The notes under the pieces: model-generated
What the model saw: the letters and a program-made list of their open reading frames with translations, nothing else
Databases searched by the model: none
Told to the model about the DNA's origin: nothing
Part shown: positions 24,971-35,249 of the stretch, in pieces
How positions within the stretch are numbered: position 1 is the first letter of the stretch
Layout: each line of letters begins with the position of its first letter
From: Paenibacillus sp. MBLB1832
GTDB lineage: Bacteria > Bacillota > Bacilli > Paenibacillales > NBRC-103111
Assembly (NCBI RefSeq): GCF_032271945.1
Contig: NZ_CP130319.1
Span: 5,783,001 to 5,847,000 of the forward strand
Length of the DNA: 64,000 bases
Direction of reading: 5' to 3'
Made by a program: the position numbers and the translations under genes

Positions 24971-25750
24971 ATGTGGGTATTGTATGGAATTAGCGGAGCC
25001 GCCGTTCTTATTTTTATGGTCTTATTATTCTTAGTGGCACAAATCAAGAGAGATAACTCGATTGTGGATATTGGATGGGGCTTAGGCTTCGTCATCATCG
25101 CTCTGACGACGTTCGGATATCAAAAAGGCTTTGACATCAGACAATTGCTTGTCACGAGCTTGGTGTGCATATGGGGAGTTCGCTTGGCCGTCTATCTGTT
25201 CATTCGTTCACTCGGCCGAGGTGAAGATTACCGCTATGCCAACTTCCGTAAGCAATGGGGGAGCCGCGCGGCGCTCATCTCCTTTTTCCGCGTATTCATG
25301 ATGCAAGGATTTATCATGCTGCTGCTGGCATACCCCATCATTCGTGTTCATGCGGAGCACAGCAGCGCCCTTGATCTAACCGCTTATCTAGGTTTAATGT
25401 TATGGATCGTCGGGTTCGGGTTCCAGGTGATCGGAGATTGGCAGCTTCGACAATTCAAGAAGAAACGCCGGAATCCAGAAGAGGTGCTGACATGGGGGTT
25501 ATGGCGCTATACCCGTCATCCCAATTACTTTGGCGAAGCTGTCATGTGGTGGGGAGTCGCGCTGATCGTCCTCCCTTTGCCCGGCGGTTGGGGTGCATTA
25601 ATCAGCTCCCTGCTGATTAACTTCCTGCTCCTCAGAGTTTCCGGCGTGCCGTTCCTGGATCGGCGTTACGCAGATAATCCGGCGTACCAACAATATAAAC
25701 GAGAAACCAATCGATTCATTCCTTGGTTTCCGCGAATTGAACGCCGATAA
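24971..25750 (+). CDS. DUF1295 membrane protein (steroid 5-alpha-reductase / ICMT-like fold)
   Basis: This 259-aa protein has about six or seven membrane helices. The C-terminal signature WGLWRYTRHPNYFGE matches the cofactor-binding region of the isoprenylcysteine methyltransferase / steroid reductase superfamily. The catalytic reaction of DUF1295 proteins is not established; action on a lipid is likely. The start codon directly follows the stop of the FakA-DegV gene, so the pair is coupled. It is the last gene of the CarH-type operon and is followed by a strong terminator. Confidence 0.85.
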   Translation: MWVLYGISGAAVLIFMVLLFLVAQIKRDNSIVDIGWGLGFVIIALTTFGYQKGFDIRQLLVTSLVCIWGVRLAVYLFIRSLGRGEDYRYANFRKQWGSRAALISFFRVFMMQGFIMLLLAYPIIRVHAEHSSALDLTAYLGLMLWIVGFGFQVIGDWQLRQFKKKRRNPEEVLTWGLWRYTRHPNYFGEAVMWWGVALIVLPLPGGWGALISSLLINFLLLRVSGVPFLDRRYADNPAYQQYKRETNRFIPWFPRIERR

Positions 25751-28394: not shown

Positions 28395-28544
28395 GTTTGG
28401 GGCACAGCAATCGGCCATATGCATCACATGCCGCTCATTCAAATAATTTGTAAAAAAATGTCGACAACTAAAGGATTTTTACACAATTTCGTCAAATTTA
28501 TAGGTATACATTAAATATTGGGTCGTTCCCCACGAGGTGCTCAA

Positions 28545-30464
28545 ATGAAGCGTTTCCACTTGATCTTGGTACTACTCATATTTGGCGGTGCTGCCTTCTT
28601 AGCATTGCTCCTGTATCCCTACATAAGCTCAGCGGAAGATTCTAACAGTATGCCAATAACCACCTGGAAAGTGCAATGGATTCCTATTGGGGCTCCAGAA
28701 GACGCCCAGCCTGACATAGACGGAGAGTGGATTTCTGCCACGGCTGAGCACCCGTTTGATACCATTCCCAATGGGAAGATCGGCGCATGGATTCATCTAA
28801 CTGTCCCCCCGACGACCAACCTATCTAAACCTGGACTGTATATTGAACGTCTGTACGCCATGAATGTAATGATTTATGAGAACGGCAAGCCCGTCTATCA
28901 GGTCAATCACAGCTTTGACTTCGAGCGCACCCTTCTCCAACTGCCACTCGACCATAAAGAGATAACAAGCGATCTCTACCTGCGGCTCACAGCGAAGGAA
29001 CGGGCAGGTATCAGCAGTAATATCCAGCTTGGCGAGTTTCCTGAAATCTCCCAGAAAGCCATCCGCAAAGAACTGCCTGATTTGTTGCTAGGAGGCGGGT
29101 TTGTCTTCCTGTCACTCCTAATGTTTCTCTGCTCCTGGTACTTAAACCTGGCCCAACGCAGTACCGCCCTGGCGCTTACCCTATTCGTCATGTGCAGCGG
29201 CATTCTGATCATGACCTACTCGGCTATGCCTTACTACTACTTTCCTGAGCTTGGACACTTTTTCGTATTTATTTTTGATACGTCTATTTATATTTTGTTT
29301 CCTGCCCTGCTGTACTTCGTCACCCACATTTTCGAAGGCCGGTATCCATGGATCAAGCGGATGTTCCGCTGGCTTGTCGTCTATTATTTAATTAGCTTCT
29401 GCGTTATGGTATGTTATAAAATCATCGGAACGCCATTGTACTCTCTCTACGCGTTCCTGACCCTCTGGCTGGGTGCACCGCTCATTATCGGACAACTGAT
29501 TCTCATTAGCGTCCTCGCCTTTCGGAACGCCATGCAGAATCCTAATTCCTTGATCCTCTCTCTGGGTATTCTGATCCTTGCCTTATCCGGTATGACGGAT
29601 CTCTTGCTACTGTACGCGATAGATACGTTCCATATGTTTAATCTATGGAAGCTCGGCATCATTATTTTGATCGCTTCCCTAGTGATGATCCTGAACCGCC
29701 GCATTGCATCGGACTATGCCCGGCTTTTATCCTACTCCAAAGAATTGGAGCTTTACAATCACCAACTGCAGCGGACGGAAAAAATGCAGATCATTAGCGA
29801 ATTGGCCGCATCCATTGCCCATGAGGTGCGCAACCCGCTTCAGGTCACAAGAGGCTTCTTGCAGCTACTCTCGGGAAAATCAGTAGAGCACGATAAGTCC
29901 TACTTTGCCATGGCCATTCAGGAGCTGGATCGAGCGTCAGGTATCATAACGGACTTCCTGACCTTTGCGAAACCGGAGCTTGACACCCGAATAGCGCTAA
30001 ATTTGCAGCATGAGCTCGCCCAGATCGAAACCATGATGACGCCGCTGGTCTTGTTGAACAATGGGGAACTGGAGGTCCACGTGCCCGAACCTTTAATTAT
30101 TTTGGGCAACTCATCCAAGTTTAAGCAGGCATTGATCAACATCATTAAGAATAGCATCGAATCCATTCGGGAAGAAGGTCACATTACCATCAACGCCTGG
30201 GCTGAGGAAGGAACCGCTGTCATCCGCATTGCAGATAACGGCGAAGGCATGGAGCCGGAGCAGCTCGAGAAGCTAGGAGAGCCTTACTTCTCAACAAAAA
30301 CCAAAGGAACTGGCCTTGGTCTCATGGTCACCTTTCGTATCATCGAAGTGATGGAGGGTACCTTGAAATTCCATAGTGAAAAAGGAAAAGGAACCGAAGC
30401 CATCGTCCGGTTCCCCCTCGTTTCCAACACTAGTTCCAAGAAATCTGCGGTTGTACCCCAGTAG
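28545..30464 (+). CDS. 7TMR-DISM sensor histidine kinase, sporulation-kinase-like; possible pheromone receptor
   Basis: This 639-aa kinase has a signal-anchor helix, an extracellular beta-rich domain (about 40-180), seven membrane helices (about 185-400), a short coiled coil, a HisKA domain with phospho-acceptor in IAHEVRNPLQVTRGF (about 430) and an HATPase_c domain (ADNGEGM; GTGLGLMVTFRIIE). The H-box resembles the KinA/KinB sporulation kinases rather than ComP. No response regulator lies nearby, which fits an orphan kinase feeding the Spo0 phosphorelay. The ATG has CGAGGTG upstream. Its last 35 bases overlap the convergent NHLP-precursor gene. Its genetic linkage suggests it may sense the product of that locus (inference). 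Confidence 0.87.
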   Translation: MKRFHLILVLLIFGGAAFLALLLYPYISSAEDSNSMPITTWKVQWIPIGAPEDAQPDIDGEWISATAEHPFDTIPNGKIGAWIHLTVPPTTNLSKPGLYIERLYAMNVMIYENGKPVYQVNHSFDFERTLLQLPLDHKEITSDLYLRLTAKERAGISSNIQLGEFPEISQKAIRKELPDLLLGGGFVFLSLLMFLCSWYLNLAQRSTALALTLFVMCSGILIMTYSAMPYYYFPELGHFFVFIFDTSIYILFPALLYFVTHIFEGRYPWIKRMFRWLVVYYLISFCVMVCYKIIGTPLYSLYAFLTLWLGAPLIIGQLILISVLAFRNAMQNPNSLILSLGILILALSGMTDLLLLYAIDTFHMFNLWKLGIIILIASLVMILNRRIASDYARLLSYSKELELYNHQLQRTEKMQIISELAASIAHEVRNPLQVTRGFLQLLSGKSVEHDKSYFAMAIQELDRASGIITDFLTFAKPELDTRIALNLQHELAQIETMMTPLVLLNNGELEVHVPEPLIILGNSSKFKQALINIIKNSIESIREEGHITINAWAEEGTAVIRIADNGEGMEPEQLEKLGEPYFSTKTKGTGLGLMVTFRIIEVMEGTLKFHSEKGKGTEAIVRFPLVSNTSSKKSAVVPQ

Positions 30465-30678
30465 ATTTCAATTGATCCAATTCCTCCGGTTGCGGGGGAA
30501 TGACAAGCGCATAATGAGCCGATGTTTCCGCCAGCACACTCAGCTCAATACCTTCAGGAACATCGATTCCGAAATCCTGCTTCAGCGCACTACGGGGATC
30601 GGCCAACAAGCGTGCCTTGAAATCCGCGTCCTCCCAAGCCTTCTTAATGATCTTCACTTTTAACGTATCCATGGACAT
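30430..30678 (-). CDS. NHLP-leader (nitrile-hydratase-like) precursor peptide, copy 1
   Basis: This 82-aa protein shows the NHLP leader pattern: KKAWEDADFKARLLADPRSALKQDFG (about residues 12-37), VPEGIELSVL and the ending VIPPQPEEL (about 59-67), then a short tail TGVQPQISWN. NHLP leaders direct ribosomally made, modified peptides. The tail has a Trp one residue before the end, as in ComX-type pheromones. AAGGG lies ten bases before the ATG. Its stop overlaps the convergent kinase gene. Unlike copies 2 and 3 it has diverged (LDQLKS in place of LDGFTG). Confidence 0.8.
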   Translation of the reverse strand: MSMDTLKVKIIKKAWEDADFKARLLADPRSALKQDFGIDVPEGIELSVLAETSAHYALVIPPQPEELDQLKSTGVQPQISWN

Positions 30679-30716
30679 GACAACACAACCCTTCAAAATA
30701 TTAGGATATTTGCATT

Positions 30717-30749
30717 TTCATAATACCATGGAACTAGATCTTTTGTACC
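30717..30749 (-). promoter_or_regulatory. Conserved promoter block, precursor copy 1
   Basis: On the minus strand GGTACAA, TCTAGTT and TATTATGAA are kept in the same spacing as before copy 3 (27 of 33 positions identical). TATTAT would serve as the -10 box, 42 bases before the start codon, and TACAA as a weak -35. Confidence 0.5.
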
Positions 30750-30780
30750 AAAATTAGCCATTTATCGACAAATAAATTTT

Positions 30781-30802
30781 AAATCCGCCACCGTTTAACA
30801 AA
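30781..30802 (-). pseudogene. Remnant of isoprenoid-synthase 3' end (unit 1)
   Basis: AAATCCGCCACCGTTTAACA resembles the last codons of the synthase gene at 31580-31602, where the sequence reads AAATCCGCCATCATTCAACA. It directly abuts the first duplicated kinase tail and marks an old duplication joint. Confidence 0.55.
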
Positions 30803-30864
30803 ATGCCATAGTGTAAAAGGAAAAGGAACCGAAGCCATCGTCCAGTTCCCTCTCATTTTCAACC

Positions 30865-31088
30865 CTAATTCCAAGAAGCCATCTGTGGTTGTACCCCAGT
30901 ACCAGTAAATCCATCCAATTCCTCTGGTTTCGGAGGAATGATCAGCGCATACTTCGTGGGTGTTACCGCCATTACATTCAGTTCAATACCTTCAGGAATT
31001 GTATGTCCGAATTCTTGCTGCAGTGCACTTCGGGGATCTGCCAGCAAACGTGCCTTGAAATCCGCGTCCTCCCAAGCTTTCTTGATAT
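30865..31088 (-). pseudogene. NHLP precursor copy 2, 5'-truncated
   Basis: This copy keeps residues from IKKAWEDADF to the end (TGVQPQMASWN) and is nearly identical to copy 3. It lacks the first ten or so codons, the ribosome binding site and the promoter. At about 31088 the sequence jumps straight into a fragment of the synthase 3' end, so a deletion joined the two. Translation could only start at internal codons such as the TTG of LLADP, which have no good ribosome binding site. It is probably silent, although its open frame and tail are intact. Confidence 0.75.
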
Positions 31089-31154
31089 TCCGCCATCATT
31101 CAACAAACTATCGTAATGATCTCTAATCTCGTTTGCCTTGCTCTGCAAGCTTTG
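31089..31154 (-). pseudogene. Fragment of isoprenoid-synthase 3' end (unit 2)
   Basis: These 66 bases match 31582-31647 of the synthase gene with only a few changes. They encode the tail motif NEIRDHYDSLLNDGG out of context and sit between the truncated precursor copy 2 and the third kinase-tail copy. Confidence 0.8.
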
Positions 31155-31224
31155 AGCCTGGAATTCTATAGTGTAAAAAGAAAAGGAACCGAAGCCATCG
31201 TCCGGTTCCCTCTTGTTTCCAACC

Positions 31225-31476
31225 TTAGGTCCAACTATACATCTGTGGTTGTACCCCAGTACCAGTAAATCCATCCAATTCCTCTGGTTTCGGGGGAATG
31301 ATCAGCGCATACTTCGTGGGTGTTACCGCCATTACATTCAGCTCAATACCTTCAGGAATTGTATGTCCGAATTCTTGCTGCAGTGCACTTCGGGGATCTG
31401 CCAGCAAACGTGCCTTGAAATCCGCGTCCTCCCAAGCTTTCTTGATAATACTCACTTTTAACGTATCCATGGACAT
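31225..31476 (-). CDS. NHLP-leader precursor peptide, copy 3 (complete)
   Basis: This 83-aa precursor has the same NHLP leader as copy 1 (KKAWEDADFKARLLADPRSALQQEFG, then IPEGIELNV and IIPPKPEEL) and the tail TGTGVQPQMYSWT with Trp at position 82. GGAAGG lies ten bases before the ATG, and a conserved promoter block lies about 40 bases upstream. The synthase gene ends 76 bases upstream on the same strand. This copy most likely represents the functional substrate. The predicted mature part is short; the cleavage site cannot be read, since no GG or GA motif ends the leader. Confidence 0.82.
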   Translation of the reverse strand: MSMDTLKVSIIKKAWEDADFKARLLADPRSALQQEFGHTIPEGIELNVMAVTPTKYALIIPPKPEELDGFTGTGVQPQMYSWT

Positions 31477-31514
31477 GATAGCACAACCTTCCAAATATTA
31501 GGATAATTTTCATC

Positions 31515-31547
31515 TTCATAATATCATATAACTAGACATGTTGTACC
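31515..31547 (-). promoter_or_regulatory. Conserved promoter block, precursor copy 3
   Basis: The minus-strand block GGTACAA ... TCTAGTT ... TATTATGAA matches the block before copy 1. Conservation here, in an otherwise diverged spacer, suggests a separate regulated promoter for the precursor downstream of the synthase gene. Confidence 0.5.
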
Positions 31548-31551
31548 ATTA

Positions 31552-32493
31552 TTAACCATTTATTTTCAAATACATTGAAAATCCGCCATCATTCAACAAA
31601 CTATCGTAATGATCTCTGATCTCGTTCGCCTTGCGCTGCAAGCTTTGTGTGATGATAGATGTGAAAACCTGAAGGGATGCGGGAGCATCCTTCATGGCAC
31701 TCAACTGATTGGCATAATCGCATGCAAGGGTCGCAAGCCCTCCTAAGGCCTGCTCACGATAAATGCCGCGTTTCACCATACTCTCATCCAAAACTTCGCC
31801 TGCTTGTAGCGGAAGATTCTCTCGCAACAATACTAGGAAAGCGTTACAGGAGGCCGTCGGTAAATCCTCCCGCCAATCTGTCCAGTCATCGGAGAGTTGA
31901 AGTACCGCAAGGGCTAAATCAATGGCCACCTCCATATCCCCAATCCTTTTGGCTACCCCAGCTTGGAGCAACAATGCTGCAGCACATAGCTTCACTGGGG
32001 CAGCCTTGCGGGCCAATCGGCCAGGATCCCGCGGGTCCATTGGCTCGTCCACCTCACGGTACATAGCTTCTGCCCATTCCGCCAAATAGCGGTTATAACA
32101 AGCCCCTAGCTGAGGGTCTCCTGAGAAACACCGGTGATAAGCCTCCATAAACCTTTGATTCAAAAGCGTGCTCAAGGCCAGCGATCGCCGAATCTCCCCC
32201 TTCTCATCCATTACATCGTCCAGGAGAAAAAAGGACAACATCCCGTACACATTTCCTACCGCTAACTCGCGACACAGCTCGATCGGACTCCCCACGGTCT
32301 CTCCAACCCAATACGGGAGCAGGTAGCTGATCATATTAGACCCTTCGCTGTCCTTCCTGTCAAAAGGATAGCACTGGCCCAGAAGCGCCAACGCCTGCTC
32401 TTTCGATTCCTCCGGCAGCGTCTGCAATTGAGCCGCGGCTTCCCCGAAAATCCAGACAATCTCATCCCTATATTGATCTAATAGTTGGTTCAT
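31552..32493 (-). CDS. Isoprenoid-synthase-like (polyprenyl synthetase fold) protein, candidate ComQ-type peptide prenyltransferase
   Basis: This 313-aa all-helical protein carries both aspartate-rich motifs of the class I isoprenoid synthase fold: LLDDVMDE (D92, D93, D96) and SDDWTDWRED (D202, D203, D206). Both should bind Mg-diphosphate. Length and motifs suit ComQ, which transfers a prenyl group to a Trp of ComX, but classical prenyl diphosphate synthases and terpene synthases share them. Its position directly before small precursors ending in a conserved Trp favours peptide prenylation (inference). The ATG has GGAAGG about 13 bases upstream, a rather long spacing. Confidence 0.8.
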   Translation of the reverse strand: MNQLLDQYRDEIVWIFGEAAAQLQTLPEESKEQALALLGQCYPFDRKDSEGSNMISYLLPYWVGETVGSPIELCRELAVGNVYGMLSFFLLDDVMDEKGEIRRSLALSTLLNQRFMEAYHRCFSGDPQLGACYNRYLAEWAEAMYREVDEPMDPRDPGRLARKAAPVKLCAAALLLQAGVAKRIGDMEVAIDLALAVLQLSDDWTDWREDLPTASCNAFLVLLRENLPLQAGEVLDESMVKRGIYREQALGGLATLACDYANQLSAMKDAPASLQVFTSIITQSLQRKANEIRDHYDSLLNDGGFSMYLKING

Positions 32494-32659: not shown

Positions 32660-34756
32660 TTAATTTTCTTTTTCACCGTAATAGTAGCCTCTACCGTTTG
32701 TACCAATATATACACGACCATAAACTTGTCTGTCGCCTTCCATACAGTTAGGATCATTACCAACACGGTTTGCATCATCATTAATACGAATCCAAGTCGT
32801 ACCTTTGTCATCAGATCTAAAAATACCTTCAACACCATCCACACGGCCATATACATAGACTGCAGGTATGTCTTCGGTAAGCCCCTTGCCAAAAGCGAAT
32901 AAGTAAGCTTGGTTAACATTATTCAGTTTGGTAAAGGTATCTCCAAAATCACAGGATGTGTATAAGCCATAATGGTTCAGGTTAACCCACACATGTCCTT
33001 TATTATTAGGCATTGCTTTCATGTTTGAGAAAGTCTCAAGAGGTAATTCACTGACTTTAATCCAGTTAATGCCACCATCGGTACTTCTATAAACTTCTCC
33101 ACGATGATAAATGTAGTACACATTGTTTTCAACTCTATCAGAAGCTATGCAATGATTATTAGACCAAAATTTTTCAACACTACCTTTGGGTGCACCTACA
33201 GACTCCTGCCATGTGACACCTGCATCAAATGTTACTTTGGGCGTGTCTTGAATAGGAAGAACAACAAAGTTATTTTCATTTACTGGGTTCATAGCTAACT
33301 TACCATTTGCACCAAAAGGCCAATTTTTAAATGCTTTCCAACTGACACCATTATCAGAAGAATAGCCGCCGCCTCCAGTCTTACCCCATTCCCAAGAACC
33401 AACTCTAGCCATGAAGTTAGGATTACTTTCACAGTAGTCAATACCTGTTGTTTCTTGCATCTCTGGACCACCATGTTTTTTTAGTGGACTTTCTTGCAAA
33501 TTTGTATGACGCATACCATCGTTGTCCGCAATACCTGTAATGATGCTAGCTCCAATTGGAGGACAAATCATAGTGAAGCTTACCATAGATTCATATCCTT
33601 GTGTATACGACTTCCAATGACGTGGTTTCTGTGATATATCATCTGTTCGCCAAATAGCATACCAGTCTGTAAAATACACTTGGCTTGGGTTATGTGGGTT
33701 TATCAATACACTGGAAGTGGCTGCACTAAAGTAGCAACTTGGAAACCATGGTACATCTGCATTAGCTATGGATTGGTTGGTAACTAATTCCCAGCTATCG
33801 CCACCATTAAGGGTAATAAATATTGGATTCCAAAAACCATTAAACCTAACAGAACACACTACTCGATTGGGATTCGTCGGATCAACGGATATACCTGTAT
33901 ATTCTTCATAAACTGGATCTGGTGTGATATTTTTTGTAATACCTAAATCATATCTATAAACGCCACGTGTCACATCTGTGGTTTTTGCACCACAATAACC
34001 GGCTGAAATAAATAAGGCACCTTCGCTATTCATACTCATTCGATTCGGCATCAATGGTGTGTTTGGAATAACTTTGAATGTTTCACCACCATCTAGTGTT
34101 TCATAAACACCTTCACCGCATATACCAACAAAAAATCTCTGACATCTGCCATTAACAACGCTATTTGGGTCGAATATGACACTTCTGATACCGTATCCTT
34201 TAATTCCGTCTGGAACACCAGTAAGTTGTCTCCAATTATCGTTCCTCGTTGCTTGTTCCATGATGTAGAGACCATCACTTCGTGTACCACAGACAACATA
34301 GTCACTATTTGATGGATCAACAGCAATACACTCACCATTCCATCGCACTACTAGATTGCCTCTAAAGTCTTTGTTAAGGTTTGTTCTCTCCCATGTAATA
34401 CCTCTATCTCGGGACCTAAGGACATCACAAGGATTTTCGTCTATATCTGTTTCGAAGTATTGCATCACTTCTTCTTTGCTATATTTACCTGCTGCTACAT
34501 AAATAACGTCCGAATTCTGGGCGTCAAGGGCAACAGAATCAATACCATAGAAATTACGTTGACTTAGACCAAATGAATCCATCAATTGAATCCATCTTTC
34601 TTCATCTTTATGTAAGCGGTATAACCCGCCGACATCCGTTCTAACATATATGAGGTCTTCTTCTTTGGGATGAATAATTAAACCTGTTGCATAACCACCT
34701 CCACCGATTCTAAGGTTATTCCACTTATAATGATCACTCATAATTGTTTGATTCAT
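32660..34756 (-). CDS. GH74/BNR-type beta-propeller protein with multiple Asp-boxes
   Basis: This 698-aa protein begins like GH74 xyloglucanases (IGGGGYATGLIIHP, YVRTDVGGLYR). At least eight Asp-box motifs recur along it: SRDRGITW, TLDGGETF, TLNGGDSW, SSDNGVSW, TFDAGVTW, STDGGINW, SCDFGDTF and SDDKGTTW. This predicts two seven-bladed propellers with an endo-acting glucanase cleft. There is no signal peptide, so it would act in the cytoplasm on imported oligosaccharides or be released otherwise. The ATG has AGAGGAG upstream. It reads as more AT-rich than its neighbours, which hints at horizontal acquisition. It stands alone, with no transporter beside it. Confidence 0.82.
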   Translation of the reverse strand: MNQTIMSDHYKWNNLRIGGGGYATGLIIHPKEEDLIYVRTDVGGLYRLHKDEERWIQLMDSFGLSQRNFYGIDSVALDAQNSDVIYVAAGKYSKEEVMQYFETDIDENPCDVLRSRDRGITWERTNLNKDFRGNLVVRWNGECIAVDPSNSDYVVCGTRSDGLYIMEQATRNDNWRQLTGVPDGIKGYGIRSVIFDPNSVVNGRCQRFFVGICGEGVYETLDGGETFKVIPNTPLMPNRMSMNSEGALFISAGYCGAKTTDVTRGVYRYDLGITKNITPDPVYEEYTGISVDPTNPNRVVCSVRFNGFWNPIFITLNGGDSWELVTNQSIANADVPWFPSCYFSAATSSVLINPHNPSQVYFTDWYAIWRTDDISQKPRHWKSYTQGYESMVSFTMICPPIGASIITGIADNDGMRHTNLQESPLKKHGGPEMQETTGIDYCESNPNFMARVGSWEWGKTGGGGYSSDNGVSWKAFKNWPFGANGKLAMNPVNENNFVVLPIQDTPKVTFDAGVTWQESVGAPKGSVEKFWSNNHCIASDRVENNVYYIYHRGEVYRSTDGGINWIKVSELPLETFSNMKAMPNNKGHVWVNLNHYGLYTSCDFGDTFTKLNNVNQAYLFAFGKGLTEDIPAVYVYGRVDGVEGIFRSDDKGTTWIRINDDANRVGNDPNCMEGDRQVYGRVYIGTNGRGYYYGEKEN

Positions 34757-35249
34757 ATTAAAACTCCTCTCGTAACATGCCACAATAAATAAGCTGGCCC
34801 ATGCCTACCCGAAGACGAACCACAGCCGGGTATTAGTTGCTGCTTGCGGCTCCAATTGCATAATGCTCACGCCTGTAGCCTATTCCCATTGCTTTGCTTT
34901 CTCATTATATCTTCGGTGATCTGCACGGAATATGTCATCCACCAACGAAAGCATGTTCGAAAAATCGGAAATGATACGCAGTCTTGAGCGGTTTTAGCCG
35001 AAGTGCCGCAGAACAAAATCACTCTGCGGTTGAATAAACACTCCTAGCCGACGGTTTACTCAACCCTCGGCTCTTCTTTGCTTACCATCGTCTCATTACA
35101 TGTAGGGCAAAAGAAAGTTGGTTCCTTTGTCCTGTTCGTGGACTACCTGATTCTCGGGCATAAGCAACCGTCACAGTGAAAAATTAACCACATACACACC
35201 GGCATGCGTCACACATAGTTCTTCCCTTGCAATTTGTGATTCAGGATTT
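34757..35249. other. About 490-base gap between accessory region and rlmH
   Basis: This gap holds no intact gene that I can support. It contains the promoter region of the GH74-like gene, several short inverted repeats (for example CCGCAGA / TCTGCGG around 35005-35032) and a decayed zinc-ribbon reading frame. It ends at the att-like 3' end of rlmH. Confidence 0.5.
35056..35193 (-). pseudogene. Decayed small zinc-ribbon protein gene
   Basis: A 46-codon frame starts with ATG and reads HCDGCLCPR, then TKEPTFFCPTCNETMVSKEEPRVE before its stop. It contains one in-frame TAG at codon 17. The two Cys pairs (CDGC and CPTC) look like a zinc ribbon split by the stop. There is no good ribosome binding site. 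It may be a broken gene or chance. Confidence 0.3.

Follow-up and report, generated by a model that had tools for sequence, protein, structure and literature searches.

The closest described relative of the locus reported here is the PalP-PalX-PalQ system of Paenibacillus alvei, published in 2023 by Miyata, Ito and Fujinami (PMC10853753; this and the other papers cited here are used from the portions of their text available to us). It comprises a histidine kinase (PalP), a precursor with a nitrile hydratase-like leader peptide (NHLP; PalX) and the enzyme PalQ, and is conserved in various Paenibacillus. PalQ of P. alvei attaches prenyl groups of C5 to C15 to PalX, nuclear magnetic resonance for the C5 product placed the group on C3 of the C-terminal tryptophan, and the PalX leader aids the reaction; the available text states no role for the peptide. 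Our study examined a window of 64 000 nucleotides (C1:5783001-5847000) from the single-contig 5.85-Mb genome of Paenibacillus sp. MBLB1832, in which positions 28545-32493 carry palP on the plus strand, convergent to palX1, palX2, palX3 and palQ, all on the minus strand. A preliminary description of this DNA had proposed a ComQXP-like prenylated-peptide signalling locus. The resemblance to ComQXP holds in outline, but the locus is not ComQXPA, and because PalP-PalX-PalQ was described in 2023 the core of that idea is largely in print. Judged by gene content, predicted fold and individual residues, the locus belongs to the PalPXQ kind; new in the window's cassette are its multiple precursors and the penultimate position of their tryptophan.

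On balance, we favour the reading that this is a divergent PalPXQ cassette in which a prenylated PalX peptide would be sensed by PalP and would feed Spo0F and Spo0A, with feedback from phosphorylated Spo0A. PalQ would bind the NHLP leader of PalX and prenylate indole C3 of the penultimate tryptophan (with C5 to C15 groups in P. alvei), after which the leader would be cleaved and the short prenylated core would exit the cell. PalP, a convergent orphan kinase with seven transmembrane (TM) helices, would sense this core and pass phosphate to Spo0F and thence to Spo0A, and phosphorylated Spo0A would act on the palP and palX promoters, so that sporulation entry and a peptide signal that varies between species would be joined in a loop. 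Tryptophan prenylation and the help of the leader are known from P. alvei and would apply here by analogy, while we infer export, sensing, phosphotransfer, the direction of regulation and, in the window clade, the penultimate tryptophan as the modified residue.

The enzyme and its paired kinase

The window palQ (31552-32493, minus strand) encodes a predicted tryptophan prenyltransferase of 313 aa. As had been proposed from the sequence, it has a predicted isoprenoid-synthase fold and two aspartate-rich motifs, the first (FARM) being DDVMD at residues 92-96 and the second (SARM), in a SARM-like form, QLSDDWTD at residues 199-206. No Pfam or NCBIfam model scored above its cut-off for this protein, those of the polyprenyl synthases included, and a comparison with PDB sequences found no relative, the single match having an E-value of 0.69. 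An AlphaFold model built with 20 relatives in the alignment (predicted local distance difference test score, pLDDT, 87.5) resembled polyprenyl diphosphate synthases, with a best Foldseek E-value of 8.3e-4 and, by VIA, a Z-score of 23.1 and a root-mean-square deviation of 2.8-2.9 over 270-274 residues; the VIA list is a re-examination of the Foldseek matches and does not thereby exclude families outside it. Identity as a terpene synthase or polyprenyl synthase was considered and rejected, the family models being below cut-off and the fold alone agreeing.

In P. alvei PalQ the discussed residues are D89, D93, Q197, D200 and D204, and a D200/D204 double mutant retained activity (PMC10853753). The FARM aspartate pair, the glutamine and the SARM aspartate pair of the window enzyme fit this spacing when compared with the residue numbers in the paper rather than by alignment. 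Glutamine stands at 197, the same number as in P. alvei PalQ, when counted from a possible methionine start in four of eight printed relatives (L081, L118, L119 and L134). Family statistics were drawn from a scan of named genomes that gave 173 PalQ relatives, of which the best 80 were studied throughout, a choice that favours loci close to the query. Among these 80 named relatives the SARM pattern Q[LM]xDDxxD was present in every one and the FARM pattern D[DE]xxD in 76. A joined FARM-SARM pattern failed in 14/80 enzymes (five of the window clade with slightly shorter spacing, five with an aromatic residue replaced and four without D[DE]xxD), and the two motifs were then scored apart. The four without D[DE]xxD (L080, L084, L087 and L136) come from one corner of the tree and retain DAxMD.

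Taken together, this suggests that the window PalQ is likely a tryptophan-prenylating enzyme of isoprenoid fold, and prenylation of the tryptophan of PalX at C3 is predicted by analogy with P. alvei. An ordinary chain-elongating prenyl diphosphate synthase adjoining NHLP genes by chance would account for the best structural matches and the two aspartate-rich motifs. We consider this highly improbable, as no polyprenyl-synthase model reaches its cut-off, the residues match those of a characterized peptide prenyltransferase, and an NHLP precursor adjoins palQ in 78/80 loci, contrary to what ordinary synthases lacking precursor genes would show.

Translated from its ATG at 28545, the kinase gene palP (28545-30464, plus strand) gives a protein of 639 aa. 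Its predicted model (pLDDT 72.6) has a first TM helix, a beta ectodomain at 45-173, seven helices at 174-400 and a kinase core with HisKA and HATPase domains, the HisKA (PF00512) segment being HEVRNPLQVTRGFLQLL. The convergent multi-TM kinase of 7TMR-DISM layout noted earlier is thus borne out by the model, while the Pfam match to 7TMR-DISM_7TM lies below threshold (20.4 versus 29).

Compared with the ComQ-ComX-ComP-ComA system of Bacillus, the locus shares an isoprenoid-fold enzyme, a tryptophan near the precursor C terminus and a multi-TM kinase beside them. It differs in that its precursors are of the NHLP family (TIGR03793), as the preliminary description had recognized, with no ComX model (PF05952) listed at E-values up to 1; in that its kinase has HisKA PF00512 and a 7TMR-DISM layout, whereas ComP has HisKA_3 (PF07730, PMC4008528); and in that its genes are convergent with no adjacent ComA. 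The likeness to PalP-PalX-PalQ of P. alvei is closer, with the genes for a kinase, an NHLP precursor and an isoprenoid-fold enzyme as neighbours, matching FARM, glutamine and SARM residues, and a tryptophan in the extreme end region of the precursor. Unlike the P. alvei system, the window cassette is a second genomic copy, has three precursor copies (one of them broken) and carries its tryptophan in the penultimate rather than the terminal position. The canonical cassette of the same genome lies at C1:4505630, and its enzyme is about 31 % and its kinase 41-42 % identical to those of the window.

The convergent order palQ, palX, palP was found in 78/80 named loci; in the two exceptions (L131 and L132) the kinase is present and the precursors lie further away. 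PalQ and PalP distances were correlated over the 80 loci (rho 0.70). Across 11 canonical PalPs the linker and phosphotransfer region was 90.6 % identical, compared to 52.4 % for the ectodomain and 62.2 % for the seven-TM part; for six window-clade PalPs the same three regions were 97.3, 82.7 and 84.8 % identical. Among 11 canonical precursors the leader was 88 % identical, positions -6 to -2 were 42 % identical and the tryptophan was 100 % conserved. A variable core peptide and sensor combined with a constant output domain would fit a signal-receptor pair. Against two relatives, the ratio of non-synonymous to synonymous substitution rates (dN/dS) was 0.20 and 0.23 for palQ and 0.18 and 0.14 for palP, and with these values of 0.14-0.23 both genes, and so the cassette, have been under purifying selection. 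A second PalP-like kinase lies in or beside the cassette at ten loci (L097, L100, L108, L109, L112, L115, L116, L124, L130 and L139).

A further reading has to be weighed here, in which the product is a prenylated ribosomally synthesized and post-translationally modified peptide (RiPP) with no signalling role, such as a membrane-active peptide, and PalP only regulates its production or senses membrane stress. The P. alvei work terms its product a RiPP and, in the available text, does not mention signalling (PMC10853753); prenylation with PalQ raised the activity of antimicrobial peptides (PMC13290415); and tandem precursors would suit a peptide cocktail. However, no further gene family recurred in more than 13/80 loci within the 5-kb flanks (the two commonest resembling ABC-transporter permeases), and thus no conserved exporter, immunity gene or protease was found there. 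The pairing of kinase and precursor in 78/80 loci, together with the Spo0F-type specificity residues described below, also points away from this account, which we hold to be unlikely.

Position of the tryptophan in the precursors

Two of the window precursors exceed the TIGR03793 cut-off of 50.9 bits: palX1 (30430-30678, minus strand, 82 aa, tail STGVQPQISWN) with 65.0 bits and palX3 (31225-31476, minus strand, 83 aa, tail GTGVQPQMYSWT) with 63.1 bits. This agrees with the small NHLP-leader precursors with a penultimate tryptophan that had been noticed beside the enzyme. The third, palX2 (30865-31095, minus strand, tail GTGVQPQMASWN), is a broken copy that has lost its start codon, the start of its leader and its promoter region and is fused to a remnant of the palQ 3' end. 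The tryptophan is penultimate in all three and, unlike in P. alvei PalX, is the very last residue in none of them. Six window-type genomes hold 17 precursor copies (three in the window and 14 in relatives), arranged two to four in tandem in each, and all 17 have the tryptophan penultimate, including the broken palX2 and a shortened copy in L063.

Precursors of the wider family were located by a hidden Markov model grown from two window precursors, and 95 were counted, covering the 80 named loci together with L033, L053 and L058 but not the window's own copies. The tryptophan was last in 51, one before last in 40 and two before last in four, and so lay within the last three residues in 95/95, contrary to the possibility that it is not conserved among related precursors. 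The residue that follows it was highly variable. Outside this count stand earlier-fetched loci of the same genomes (L001-L032 and L034-L052), L054-L057 and L059-L062, whose printed hits likewise end in or near tryptophan, with the exception of a weak 47-aa precursor-like fragment at L028 (E-value 6e-4), which has none and was not counted. A dN/dS value for palX3 against L034 was set aside, as the copy types compared may differ.

The offset of the tryptophan follows the PalQ tree. On a maximum-likelihood tree of 84 rows, from which two rows without a nearby precursor were left out of the offset count, eight changes were required, compared to a mean of 27.8 with shuffled labels (0/200 as low). 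The window sits in a 13-row PalQ clade in which all are penultimate (support 100/96), and on well-supported branches the penultimate state must have been gained or lost five times or more. With only 51/95 precursors terminal, a terminal tryptophan is not general in the PalX family and was not taken as defining for PalX at large; the enzymes either accept a penultimate tryptophan or the extra residue is trimmed.

The second of these options, loss of the final residue before PalQ prenylates what has become a C-terminal tryptophan, would make the penultimate position a detail of the propeptide. P. alvei PalQ required a terminal tryptophan on core peptides, and alanine added after it abolished activity on leaderless cores (PMC10853753), a result that tells against direct prenylation in the window clade; because such extended cores were inactive, a penultimate tryptophan may require either trimming or a different geometry of the enzyme. 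A 2026 review restated the strict terminus rule (PMC13290415), and the great variety of the residue after the tryptophan would also suit removal. However, the same review mentions that an internal tryptophan flanked by glycine was prenylated with low activity, no further gene and hence no carboxypeptidase recurs in more than 13/80 loci, and the stability of the offset within PalQ clades suggests a position fitted to the enzyme. Trimming first is therefore a reasonable account, but the less probable one in our judgement. If the tryptophan is instead modified in place, the penultimate-tryptophan clade would represent natural enzymes that may prenylate a non-terminal tryptophan, unlike P. alvei PalQ on alanine-extended cores.

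Individual loci showed further arrangements. The PalX of L084 (P. antibioticophila) ends IWGEW, with two tryptophans, and its sister L136 ends IWGN; L084 could be intermediate between a terminal and an internal tryptophan. In Cohnella xylanilytica (L078) another precursor and a PalP-like kinase lie approximately 4 kb from palQ, one precursor having the tryptophan penultimate and the other terminal.

As the repeats show, the array itself arose by palX duplication in which the copied unit included the 3' ends of both palP and palQ, and remnants of these are still present. Two palP 3'-end remnants of repeat family D1, with approximate ends, lie on the plus strand at 30802-30908 (by blastp 73 % over 33 aa against the C terminus of palP) and 31162-31268 (69 % over 35 aa), and a palQ 3'-end remnant of repeat D3 lies ahead of palX2 at 31082-31154 on the minus strand, 93 % identical to 31575-31647. 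At their 3' ends palP and palX1 share 35 bp (30430-30464), so that the palX1 core peptide is encoded antisense to the kinase tail; a palP/palX overlap was found in 14/78 loci, including the five named relatives of the window clade.

Sporulation-kinase signatures and Spo0A boxes

Of the new leads, the putative link to sporulation is the most useful. In a study of the Spo0 pathway, every verified sporulation kinase is noted to be an orphan and few sequence features are said to distinguish such kinases; the specificity residues are listed as TAGFQL for KinA, TVGFQL for KinB and TGGFQL for KinD (PMC6136694). In P. polymyxa, Kin1377 restores sporulation in a B. subtilis kinA kinB mutant (PMC6429003) and five putative kinases have been listed (PMC7538429). 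The available portions of PMC12826061 and PMC11210211 hold nothing on PalP-like kinases.

Searched against PDB sequences, the PalP core matched KinB (3d36) with 201 bits, the runner-up scoring 96. Specificity positions were deduced by anchoring on the histidine (+7, +8, +11, +12, +14 and +15), and the predicted residues QVGFQL agree at five of six positions with TVGFQL of B. subtilis KinB and were present in 75/80 PalPs. In the genome itself the pattern ..GFQ[LM] was found in 7/30 HisKA loci, namely the two PalPs and five with threonine first; the script could not read four of the 30 loci, and a further match, the 31st, belonged to no locus. PalP is also an orphan, with no response-regulator domain in the ten window neighbours searched on both sides of the cassette, as the preliminary description had stated for the adjacent genes, and with no further gene family in more than 13/80 of the named loci. 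It resembles the orphan sporulation kinases (the KinA-KinE type and Kin1377 and Kin1038 of P. polymyxa) in being an orphan with a KinB-like core and predicted GFQL specificity residues, and differs from them in having glutamine first and in being genetically tied to a modified-peptide gene.

TGTCGAA is a 0A box, and P. polymyxa Spo0A bound, by electrophoretic mobility shift assay, a promoter with TGTCGAA and three 0A-like sites (PMC10782996). The search for this word was prompted by similar sites first seen in the window. Counted on both strands over 250 nt upstream, it occurred at 41/82 palP genes (expected 4.2; second of 6243 7-mers, after a word resembling a ribosome-binding site) and at 39/92 palX genes (expected 3.1; rank 1 of 6302 7-mers), whereas palQ showed no enrichment (3/82, expected 2.4, rank 2428) and the remaining genes of these 80 loci had it in 12/270 on either strand. 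Within -110 to -28 on the plus strand, an interval picked after seeing the positions, the counts were 37/82 for palP, 36/92 for palX and 1/270 for other genes. A perfect box stood at palP or palX in 51/80 loci and at both in 27. If each PalQ cluster (60 % identity, 38 clusters) is counted as a single locus, 18.0 palP, 18.6 palX and 1.0 palQ would carry the box.

Several observations weigh against the phosphorelay reading and against the generality of the evidence for it. The first specificity position of PalP is glutamine, while the verified kinases in the PMC6136694 table have threonine. A perfect box at palP or palX is missing from 29/80 loci, and of 47 palX-side boxes 28 lie inside the last palQ codons (Leu-Ser-Lys/Asn) and one inside palX. 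On the enzyme side, four relatives lack the full FARM, and the residue match of PalQ follows published numbering. The family statistics come from the best 80 of 173 loci, and no signalling experiment on PalPXQ was found in the literature available to us; among the papers listed in follow-up searches, judged by titles and the starts of abstracts, there was likewise none on the peptide signal, PalP function or Spo0A control. The window itself holds no perfect box: TGTCGAC at 28459-28465 (plus strand, upstream of palP) and TGTCGAT at 30764-30770 (minus strand, upstream of palX1) each have one mismatch to TGTCGAA, and CGTCAAA stands at 28490-28496 (plus strand, upstream of palP), where five near relatives (L063-L067) carry a perfect palP box. 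Lastly, the genome's own spo0A reads in two frames.

Because the palX-side boxes fall mostly in palQ codons, the box claim is based on a codon test, a gap test and the palP side. In these last palQ codons serine was encoded by TCG in 26/48 cases, compared to 19 % elsewhere, and leucine by TTG in 27/48, compared to 17.5 %. In the non-coding gap taken by itself, the box was present in 13/74, and shuffles gave a mean of 0.33 and a maximum of 2. The preliminary idea of a Spo0 phosphorelay gains independent support from the KinB-like core, the specificity residues and the boxes of the relatives, all read from sequence; in the window itself the boxes are imperfect.

These imperfect sites, the broken palX2 and the divided spo0A could also mean that the window cassette is decaying in its own strain and that signalling has been lost there, whatever the relatives do. 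The reading frames of palQ, palP, palX1 and palX3 are nevertheless open, the low dN/dS values of palQ and palP against two relatives argue for constraint, and the spo0A break may be a mutation or a sequencing error, which makes decay appear improbable. The spo0A split lies in the C-terminal domain, at G000:C1:3447940-3448252 (L143 and L144), and three perfect TGTCGAA sites stand upstream of the gene.

PalQ is familiar as an enzyme and as a tool. The signatures of the kinase and the Spo0A boxes, which favour the sporulation-linked cassette, make the role of the peptide directly testable, and raise the question of whether a prenylated peptide sets the sporulation decision in a large group of spore-formers. 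More tentatively, and a little short of what we would back, the Paenibacillales might hold a widespread prenylated-peptide quorum-sensing family plugged into the phosphorelay and controlled by Spo0A, with some genomes running two parallel channels, one with a terminal and one with a penultimate tryptophan, the second multi-precursor. As the kinases of both channels have the same specificity residues, they would feed the same response regulator.

Distribution and neighbouring genes

A search of the genus found a PalQ relative in 27/30 genomes. The window type (79-86 % identical) was present in six genomes, including the one studied here, and all six also carry the canonical type. At the level of the family a relative was found in 42/104 genomes, and a profile search of the order found one in 272/392 sampled genomes and 23/49 genera, counts that refer to the enzyme with precursors unchecked. 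A search of the 392 genomes with the P. alvei core peptide gave one match, in G024 far from its palQ, which was taken as chance.

The names of neighbouring genes were mostly taken from Pfam and NCBIfam matches, with some read by eye. Among 13 window neighbours (TetR, an ABC pair, DUF1295, a glycosidase, DegV and others), rlmH alone had a counterpart beside a relative, in 1/17 loci; over the same 17 loci, neither the DUF1295 protein nor the BNR/sortilin-type protein had a counterpart near the cassette relatives. The DUF1295 membrane protein (24971-25747, plus strand) lies 3 kb from palP and matches isoprenylcysteine carboxyl methyltransferase below the threshold. The BNR/sortilin-type protein, of 707 aa (32663-34783, minus strand), adjoins palQ and is weakly similar to the F510_1955 glycosylhydrolase.

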